Below are positions 10,206 through 12,552 of a DNA stretch of 64,000 bases, one piece after another. Numbering within the stretch: the first letter of the stretch is position 1; every line of letters starts with the position of its first letter. A model generated the notes under the pieces. That model saw only the letters and a program-made list of their open reading frames with translations, made no database searches and was not told where the DNA came from. The stretch lies in the NCBI GenBank assembly GCA_947173485.1, contig CAMWFH010000001.1, positions 248,001 to 312,000 on the forward strand. Direction: 5' to 3'. This DNA is from an uncultured Clostridia bacterium (GTDB lineage: Bacteria; Bacillota; Clostridia; Oscillospirales; Oscillospiraceae). Position numbers and translations under genes: made by a program.

Positions 10206-10415
10206 AAGTATCTTAGCACACATTTTCCCATTTGTCAAGCATTCATGGGAAACGATTTGAAAGATCCCGATCATACTGTAGGATAGTGTTCTGTGCGATT
10301 GGTCACCAAGAGGTGACTAAGCAACAAAAAAGTGCGTACTTGTTTTTCGTACAAGGATACAGTAGGATAAAAATGCGGACCGGGAAACAGGTCCGACGAA
10401 TATCACTGGAGGTAC

Positions 10416-10580
10416 ATGATGATGGCGCTTTCTGATCTGTCCGGCTGGACCGCTTCTTCCTGCGGCGCATCCGACAAGCCTACTGCCTGCGGCGCTGCTG
10501 ACAAGCCGGAGGGTACGCCCGGCAAGCCCGAGGAGAAGCCTACCGCTTGCGGCTCTGCCTGCGGTGCCGGCGACAAGTGA
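10416..10580 (+). CDS. Cys-rich 'ACG'-repeat peptide, probable RiPP precursor
   Basis: 54 residues, starting at one of three consecutive ATG codons after a GGAGG site (10408-10412). After a short leader (MALSDLSGW) the peptide repeats units such as SSCGASDKP, TACGAADKP and TACGSACGAGDK. It holds four Cys, each followed by Gly and spaced by Asp-Lys-Pro. Short Cys-repeat peptides of this kind, encoded directly before a radical-SAM gene, belong to the CXXX/ACGX-repeat class of presumed radical-SAM-modified peptides (family names from memory). Here the gene is followed by a hairpin and by what looks like only the first codons of such an enzyme. The repeat pattern argues against a chance reading frame. 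Confidence 0.72.
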   Translation: MMMALSDLSGWTASSCGASDKPTACGAADKPEGTPGKPEEKPTACGSACGAGDK

Positions 10581-10586
10581 GGCCGG

Positions 10587-10615
10587 CCCCCGGCAAGGGC
10601 TGGCTCTGCCGGGGG
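10587..10615 (+). promoter_or_regulatory. Stem-loop between precursor peptide and downstream genes
   Basis: A perfect 9-bp GC stem (CCCCCGGCA, 10587-10595, with 10607-10615) and an 11-base loop start seven bases after the peptide's stop codon. No T-tract follows, so it is more likely a processing or attenuation hairpin, as is common between RiPP precursor genes and their enzymes, than a full terminator. Confidence 0.6.
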
Positions 10616-10672
10616 ATCTTCCAAATGGGACCGGCGCCTGCTGGTCTTTACATAAAACAAGAGGATCACGAT

Positions 10673-10792
10673 ATGAAACAGTATTTTTCCTTCCAATGGC
10701 ACATCACGGACGAGTGTGACCAGCGATCCTGCACCGCCGGTCCATCCGGCGGTTTGCGGAAAAGCAGATCGAGGAGAAAGACTTGCAGCTGA
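10673..10792 (+). pseudogene. 5' remnant of a radical-SAM peptide maturase gene
   Basis: ATG 10673 opens MKQYFSFQWHITDECDQR. This matches the way radical-SAM peptide maturases begin, where the next residues would be the iron-sulfur ligands CKHCY. Instead, after codon 18 (about 10726) the sequence switches to the interior of a nitroreductase read in another frame. The product would be a meaningless 39-residue peptide ending at 10792. I read this as a deletion that removed nearly all of the maturase, including all three cluster cysteines, plus the first codons of the nitroreductase. The identification rests on the short N-terminal match and on the neighbouring Cys-repeat peptide. Confidence 0.65.
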
Positions 10793-11292
10793 TCTTGCAG
10801 GCGGGGCTGTATGCGCCCAGCGCGGGCGGACGGCAGGGCGTCCTGTTCGCTGTCTGCCAGGACAAAGAGGTCAACGAGCGCCTGGGCCGCATCAAGCGGG
10901 CCAACTCCCGGCCCAGGATGGCGACCGCCACCAGCTATGTGTCCAGAGAGCAGCCCAGCATCGCGGACGACCCCAATTTGAAGAGCGCCTTCTATGGCGC
11001 GCCTACGGTCATCACCCTGTTCGCGCCCAAAAACTTTCTGTTCGCGGCGGAGGATTGCGCGGCCGCCGCAGAAAATATGATGCTGGCCGCGGATTCCCTT
11101 GGCATCGGGTCCTGCTATATCGGCCAGGGCTGGACCGCCTTCGCGGACCCTTACGGACAGAAGATCTTGCGGGACTGGGATATCCACGTTGGCTGCTATG
11201 CGGTCATGCAGCTCCTGCTGGGCTATCCCAGAGAGGGGGACAGCCACCCTGCGCCAAAGCCCCGGCAGGGGGATCGGGTGCTGCGTTTTTGA
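10783..11292 (+). CDS. Nitroreductase-family flavoprotein, N-terminally truncated
   Basis: The nitroreductase frame is recognisable from about 10726 (ILHRRSIRRF, the usual FMN-phosphate-binding start of the family). It has no ATG there because the deletion at about 10726 removed it. The best remaining start is TTG 10783, with AGGAG at 10772-10776, giving 169 residues that lack the RRSIRRF segment. The rest is intact: APSAGGRQ, AAAAENMMLAADSLGIGSCYIG and LLLGYP. Nitroreductases reduce nitro or enone groups or quinones with NAD(P)H. The truncated product may be inactive. It is followed 15 bases later by a PNPOx/ferredoxin protein. Confidence 0.75.
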   Translation: MQLILQAGLYAPSAGGRQGVLFAVCQDKEVNERLGRIKRANSRPRMATATSYVSREQPSIADDPNLKSAFYGAPTVITLFAPKNFLFAAEDCAAAAENMMLAADSLGIGSCYIGQGWTAFADPYGQKILRDWDIHVGCYAVMQLLLGYPREGDSHPAPKPRQGDRVLRF

Positions 11293-11307
11293 GAGAGGAG
11301 CGATACG

Positions 11308-11925
11308 ATGGACGCAAAGACCTGTTTGCAAAAGCTTCGATATGTGGGCGTGCTGGCCTTTGCCACAGTGGACGGGCAGGGCGCGCCCCAGATCCGCAAC
11401 ATCAGCGCCATCCACTACGAACCAGAGGCCATGTACTTTTTTACGGCCAAGGGCAAGGACTTCTGCCGCCAGCTGTTGGCTGACGGGCGGGTGCAGATCC
11501 TCGGCTACACAAAATATAAAGAGATGATCCGGCTGTCCGCCAGGGCCAGGCCGGCCTGGGAAGGGGACCAGCAGAAATGGATCGATACGATATTCGAAGA
11601 GCAGCCCTACCTGTCCAATGCGTACCCAGGCGACACCCGGAGGCTGGCCGGCATCGTGTTTGCGATCACGGACGGGGAGATCGAGTATTTCGATCTGGGC
11701 GTCCACCCGATCTTCCGGGAGCGCTACACCATCGGCAGCGGGTCCATCACCGAAAAGGGCTATCAGATCACAGATGCCTGCATCGGCTGCGGGACCTGCG
11801 CCGTGCACTGCCCTCAACAGTGCATCGAGGCGGGGACGCCCTATCAGATCCAGCAGGCGCATTGCCTGCACTGCGGCAACTGCCACGCGGTCTGCCCTGT
11901 CCAGGCGGTCAGACAGCGGGGATAA
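11308..11925 (+). CDS. PNPOx-like flavin-binding protein fused to 2[4Fe-4S] ferredoxin
   Basis: 205 residues from ATG 11308 (GAGAGGAG site). Residues 1-140 match the pyridoxamine-phosphate-oxidase-like split barrel: VGVLAFATVDGQGAPQIRNI, then MYFFTAKGKDF and VQILGY. Residues 145-205 hold two four-cysteine clusters, CIGCGTCAVHCP and CLHCGNCHAVCP, as in bacterial ferredoxins. Such fusions pass electrons between ferredoxin-level donors and flavin. With the neighbouring nitroreductase it would form a small cytoplasmic redox pair. The substrate is unknown. Its end lies six bases from the convergent recombinase gene. Confidence 0.88.
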   Translation: MDAKTCLQKLRYVGVLAFATVDGQGAPQIRNISAIHYEPEAMYFFTAKGKDFCRQLLADGRVQILGYTKYKEMIRLSARARPAWEGDQQKWIDTIFEEQPYLSNAYPGDTRRLAGIVFAITDGEIEYFDLGVHPIFRERYTIGSGSITEKGYQITDACIGCGTCAVHCPQQCIEAGTPYQIQQAHCLHCGNCHAVCPVQAVRQRG

Positions 11926-11931
11926 CGGGCC

Positions 11932-12552
11932 CTACCTTCGGCTGAGCCCCCGTCCGGCGCCCCACTCCTCGGCCCTGCGGGTGAAGGTAGACCGGGAGAT
12001 GCCCAGCTCACGCCCCGCCTGGACGGCGGAGATCCGCCCGGACCACCACTCCTCCGCCAAGCCCTCGAACCGCTCCGACATGGAGAGACGCTTCGGGCCG
12101 AACCGCACGCCCCGGGCCTTCGCCGCCGCGATGCCCTCCGCCTGCCGCTGGCGGTTGAACTCCCGTTCCGTCTGTGCCACATAGCTGAGCAGCTGGAGGA
12201 CGATATCCGATATCAAGGTCCCTGTCAGGTCGCGGTCCGCGCGGGTGTCCAGCAGGGGCATATCCAACACCACGATGGCCACCTTCTTCTCCTTCGTCAG
12301 GCTGGCCCACTGCTCCAGTATCTCCTCGTAATTGCGCCCCAGGCGGTCGATGCTCTTGATGACCAGCACGTCGCCGGGCTGGAAGAGCTGCACCAGCTGC
12401 CGGTACAAGGGCCGGTCGAAATCCTTCCCGGACTGCTTCTCTATCGTGATATGGTCCCGTTCCACACCAAAGCCCTGCAAAGCCGCCAGCTGCCGGTCCT
12501 CTCTCTGCCCCTTCGTCGATACGCGGACATAGCCGTAGGTCTCTCCTGACAT
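11932..12552 (-). CDS. Serine recombinase (resolvase/invertase family)
   Basis: 206 residues. The N-terminal catalytic domain has the nucleophile Ser in YGYVRVSTKGQREDRQ and the Arg-containing GDVLVIKSIDRLGRNY. A long helix (YVAQTEREFNRQRQAEGIAA) and a C-terminal helix-turn-helix (AVQAGRELGISRSTFTRR) follow. The size fits Tn3-type resolvases and Hin-type invertases rather than large phage integrases. No transposase, terminal repeats or obvious res/inversion sites are seen beside it, so it is either a lone remnant of a mobile element or acts elsewhere. Its position beside the deleted RiPP locus suggests this stretch has been rearranged. Confidence 0.88.
   Translation of the reverse strand: MSGETYGYVRVSTKGQREDRQLAALQGFGVERDHITIEKQSGKDFDRPLYRQLVQLFQPGDVLVIKSIDRLGRNYEEILEQWASLTKEKKVAIVVLDMPLLDTRADRDLTGTLISDIVLQLLSYVAQTEREFNRQRQAEGIAAAKARGVRFGPKRLSMSERFEGLAEEWWSGRISAVQAGRELGISRSTFTRRAEEWGAGRGLSRR

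Follow-up and report, generated by a model that had tools for sequence, protein, structure and literature searches.

A very likely recently inactivated ACGX-type radical-SAM RiPP operon in an uncultured Clostridia bacterium

The ACGX operon and its relatives

The ACGX operon is already catalogued and is common in related Clostridia. NCBIfam describes its precursor peptide as target_ACGX (TIGR04341) and its maturase as rSAM_ACGX (TIGR04340); among the papers searched, none named the system by these terms. In the intact operon the maturase probably modifies cysteine (by a thioether or otherwise), the flavoenzyme oxidises, and the PNPOx-ferredoxin gives electrons.

We compared the window, a 64,000-nt stretch of an uncultured, gut-type Clostridia bacterium, with 30 loci from its GTDB family sampled by maturase and 80 loci from GTDB species genomes sampled by nitroreductase. 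The usual order in these loci was peptide, a spacer of 50-135 nt, a maturase of about 343-350 aa, a nitroreductase whose start lies roughly 1-40 nt beyond the stop of the maturase, and mostly a PNPOx-ferredoxin gene. At least 95 maturases among the relatives were full-length. The order peptide, maturase, nitroreductase, PNPOx-ferredoxin, which the original prediction had proposed as ancestral and expected in related genomes, was therefore common in intact form. The ancestor of the window locus would have carried a promoter, the ACGX peptide, a hairpin spacer, a radical-SAM/SPASM maturase (about 345 aa), a nitroreductase, and the PNPOx-ferredoxin.

The nitroreductase slot was variable among the relatives. 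Two types alternated in the same position (for example L038 versus L098), one with about 80% and the other with about 41-46% identity to that of the window, and the PNPOx-ferredoxin genes beside both types were closely related. Some relatives had no nitroreductase detected in the slot. In L047 (G015:C34) the 5' part of the nitroreductase was present in frame-shifted form beside an intact maturase, which indicates that nitroreductase loss also happens separately. The maturase ORF of L114 (2837-3955; G400:C49, MAG BH.6_1) contained two similar 45-nt in-frame inserts, of the AGENVPRTFSLHAKA and DENVHWTFPLHAEA type, carrying the inverted repeat GAAAACGTCC-ACT-GGACGTTT; a pattern search of the genome of L114 found the insert pattern only at those two places.

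The window locus resembles the ACGX system in having a peptide above the family cut-off, a stub matching the maturase N-terminus, and the same gene order on one strand. Unlike that system, its maturase is reduced to 18 codons and its nitroreductase has no start, so that it is not a working system. Taken together, the sequence evidence makes it very likely that one deletion of about 1.0-1.1 kb recently inactivated this ACGX-type radical-SAM RiPP operon.

Precursor peptide, spacer and maturase stub

The peptide ORF (10416..10580, + strand) encodes 54 aa, MMMALSDLSGWTASSCGASDKPTACGAADKPEGTPGKPEEKPTACGSACGAGDK. It scored 59.3 bits against TIGR04341 (curated cut-off 28; E = 4.4e-16) and covered profile positions 1-65 of 65, so the Cys-Gly repeat peptide that had been predicted is real and lies far above the cut-off. 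The peptides of relatives begin at MALS and follow the pattern MALSNLSGW-(ACGS ACGA xDKP)n; the true start is therefore probably the third ATG, at 10422 (MALSDLSGW...). The ORF, the promoter region and the spacer all looked undamaged, in agreement with the earlier view of an intact peptide gene. After the deletion, the peptide would still be transcribed but would stay unmodified.

The spacer between peptide and stub is 92 nt long. Folding placed a strong intercistronic hairpin at 10588..10614 (+), where one had been predicted, with a spacer MFE of −39.5 kcal/mol and a z-score of −2.0 against dinucleotide shuffles. A second, smaller hairpin (10627..10648, +) is followed by TTT, and many relatives have a similar one. 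The spacers of relatives (60-140 nt) folded with z < −2 against mononucleotide shuffles in 69 of 80 cases, and a spacer hairpin is a general feature of ACGX loci. The hairpins fit attenuation or mRNA processing, which would give much peptide and little enzyme.

The 39-codon remnant ORF (10673..10792, +) begins with MKQYFSFQWHITDECDQR and continues with 21 unrelated residues: codons 1-18 are those of rSAM_ACGX, and the rest is nitroreductase DNA read out of frame to a TGA. The stub matched TIGR04340 at positions 1-17 only (24.1 bits, E = 1.9e-5), far from the > 400 bits expected of a full-length member. Its DNA was 91% identical to G015 over 53 nt (E = 8.7e-14), and all 18 residues were identical in 35 of the 95 intact maturases. 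The ORF is thus the start of a radical-SAM peptide maturase, as had been proposed.

All 95 intact maturases share the CX3CX2C motif, as CDQRCKHC or CDQRCRHC, and the SPASM cysteines without exception. The earlier claim that the cluster cysteines had been removed was right for C19 and C22, which are deleted, and for all SPASM cysteines, whose region is deleted in the window, but C15 survives in the stub.

The predicted jump at codon 18 into another frame was also seen; the ILHRRSIRRF frame of the nitroreductase opens at ATC 10726. The overlap of the two frames, together with the natural fusion in L062 (G215:C41), where a single uninterrupted reading frame spans maturase and nitroreductase, could suggest that the 39-codon ORF is a genuine small gene or a leader, or that a programmed frameshift yields a maturase-nitroreductase fusion. 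We regard this as extremely improbable, as the ORF past codon 18 consists of nitroreductase DNA read in the wrong frame, the sequence read by eye shows no slippery heptamer before RRSIRRF, the 39-aa ORF has no homologue in the loci searched, and the L062 fusion retains a complete maturase. Homologues of the ORF standing without a radical-SAM gene, which would have spoken against a maturase remnant, were found in none of about 110 loci. The sole other match ending at the maturase start, in G012, lies at a contig end.

Deletion junction, nitroreductase and flanking genes

The junction lies at 10724..10726 (+), the left arm matching relatives up to 10725 and the right arm from 10724. On the left, the DNA of G283 (L038/L178), a relative from the same GTDB family with an intact operon, was colinear with the window through promoter, peptide, spacer and stub (10295-10725, 74%), left it there, and resumed from 11309 (82%). 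Unlike the window, G283 has a full 344-aa maturase and a nitroreductase of the different type, about 41% identical. On the right, the DNA of L098, an uncultured Eubacteriales MAG and the closest nitroreductase relative (87% identical), was colinear with 10724-11909 (85%). In contrast to the window, its nitroreductase has a start (MNEVMKTILHRRSIRRF) and follows a maturase C-terminus, the contig beginning inside the maturase. Matches to G086, G015, L099 and L127 broke at the same point, and the DNA missing from the window amounted to 1005-1081 nt. As both arms match relatives to and from one point, these results bear out the single deletion proposed to have fused the two genes.

This deletion would have placed nitroreductase sequence from about codon 9 directly after maturase codon 18, removing the maturase from codon 19 to its stop, the spacer, and the nitroreductase start with about seven codons. 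What remains would lack the radical-SAM cluster and the SPASM domain as well as a start for the nitroreductase. L098 has ATGAACGAAGTAATGAAAACG before ATTCTGCACCGC, hence the dinucleotide CG is common to both sides. Judged from relatives rather than from the window's own ancestral allele, this appears to be a 2-nt microhomology, and the deletion possibly occurred via it. The exact junction was sought in viral contigs, and phages were searched, with nothing found.

The genome is a MAG of 47 contigs, 96% complete with 2% contamination, and collapse of short reads could in principle produce such a junction: an assembler skipping about 1 kb, or a binning error, would then hide an intact maturase in the real genome. 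We consider such an error, the main doubt about the deletion, unlikely. The junction is 258 kb into a contig of 710 kb and away from any long repeat, assemblies do not typically collapse at 2 nt of homology, the rest of the genome contains no maturase fragment, and similar damage was present in the isolate genomes L148, L157 and L171. The E-values of the peptide, stub and nitroreductase matches (4.4e-16; 1.9e-5 and 8.7e-14; 1e-24) exclude a chance origin.

The truncated nitroreductase (PF00881, E = 1e-24) occupies 10726..11292 (+); it lacks a start codon and about seven N-terminal residues, and its frame is otherwise open. An in-frame stop, TGA 10717-10719, sits just 5' of the join, and the earliest in-frame start, TTG 10783, lies 3' of RRSIRRF. 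RRSIRRF is an Arg-rich segment that contacts the FMN phosphate in the nitroreductase family. With the original start lost and the next one downstream, this segment cannot be made, and the frame has neither the start codon nor the translatable RRSIRRF of a functional PF00881 protein. Both the maturase stub, for its lost C19, C22 and SPASM cysteines, and the nitroreductase, for its lost start ahead of RRSIRRF, are expected to be inactive.

Compared with L098, the nitroreductase showed a dN of 0.065 and a dS of 0.50, with four private amino-acid changes in the window versus three in L098. These values point to ordinary constraint with no relaxation yet. The open frame and this normal constraint indicate a recent deletion; by these sequence measures, decay started long after the window lineage split from relatives such as L098.

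The next gene (11308..11925, +) encodes a PNPOx-like protein with a C-terminal 2x[4Fe-4S] ferredoxin domain. It is apparently intact, keeps its own ribosome-binding site, and shows 85% amino-acid identity to both G283 and L098. A convergent gene for a serine resolvase-like recombinase (11932-12552, −) ends 7 nt past the PNPOx-ferredoxin stop and is not a conserved neighbour of ACGX operons. The upstream Fur-like regulator and rubrerythrin were likewise beside the ACGX operon in none of 80 relatives, nor in G283. A conserved neighbourhood including these two genes was therefore rejected, and they are chance neighbours in the window.

Rescue in trans and recurrent maturase loss

A search of the window's own genome for a full-length ACGX maturase, one of the checks proposed with the original prediction, found no match over the rSAM_ACGX cut-off, and the reading of maturase loss stands. 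Two other radical-SAM proteins matched TIGR04340 weakly. For the better of these, C1:702180, the models of heme b synthase, NirJ and PqqE gave higher scores, and it comes after a 374-aa protein whose tail is rich in Cys-Gly. The other, C26:18230, is similar to MoaA and tungsten-cofactor maturases and adjoins a glycosyltransferase-like gene. Both were rejected as trans-acting maturases, since models of other families fit them better and their gene neighbours differ; the suggestion that an enzyme encoded elsewhere modifies the peptide is thus unsupported.

These weak matches and the undamaged look of the peptide gene, its promoter region and spacer are what would favour a peptide that still functions, either because a different radical-SAM enzyme modifies it or because it is used without modification, with the deletion tolerated. 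This is very improbable, because the two proteins fit heme/PQQ-type and MoaA/W-cofactor-type models better beside other genes, and because among 400 genomes of the window's GTDB family, 34 of which have the peptide, a peptide without maturase occurred only in the window genome and at contig ends. With the maturase cluster region and the nitroreductase start gone and no second maturase in the genome, the operon is, to judge by its genes, dead for ACGX chemistry.

As a separate observation, locus L034 (32-2520; G000:C1, about 700.7-703.2 kb of the window genome) encodes a 455-aa radical SAM/SPASM protein directly 3' of the 374-aa protein, which ends GGPTGCGIGGSFCGCGSGR and has no NCBIfam match. 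The two may form a further modified-peptide or maturation pair.

Seven damaged maturases besides that of the window were present among about 93 distinct evaluable ACGX loci, a rate that is only indicative since loci were sampled partly by an intact nitroreductase. L142 and L148 had lost the N-terminal 300 residues, L146 and L171 had in-frame internal deletions, and L155 had a frameshift; L157 had lost the start region and gained a stop, and in L160 the N-terminus was replaced. The same gene was broken independently in all of them, with breakpoints that differ from that of the window. The peptide was kept in L146, L155 and L171; no ACGX peptide was found in the flanks of L142, L148, L157 and L160. 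Three of these loci come from isolate genomes (L148, Mediterraneibacter catenae; L157, F. prausnitzii; L171, Ruminococcus turbiniformis), so the damaged maturases are not all MAG errors. Maturase loss thus recurs, and the window provides one example.

The repeated loss of maturases, with the peptide or the redox partners persisting for a while, might make the modified peptide a conditional trait that varies between strains, or might point to a use for the Cys-rich peptide in its unmodified form; we hold this as a speculative idea with a small chance of being right. As a system the locus is ordinary; its modest use is as a well-bracketed example of RiPP operon death. It offers a natural genotype lacking both maturase and nitroreductase for a common, uncharacterised gut system, and warns genome miners not to infer a product from an ACGX peptide alone. 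The broken maturases in about 7 of 93 loci, the two interchangeable nitroreductase types and the conserved hairpin spacer are a starting point for characterisation of the ACGX system.
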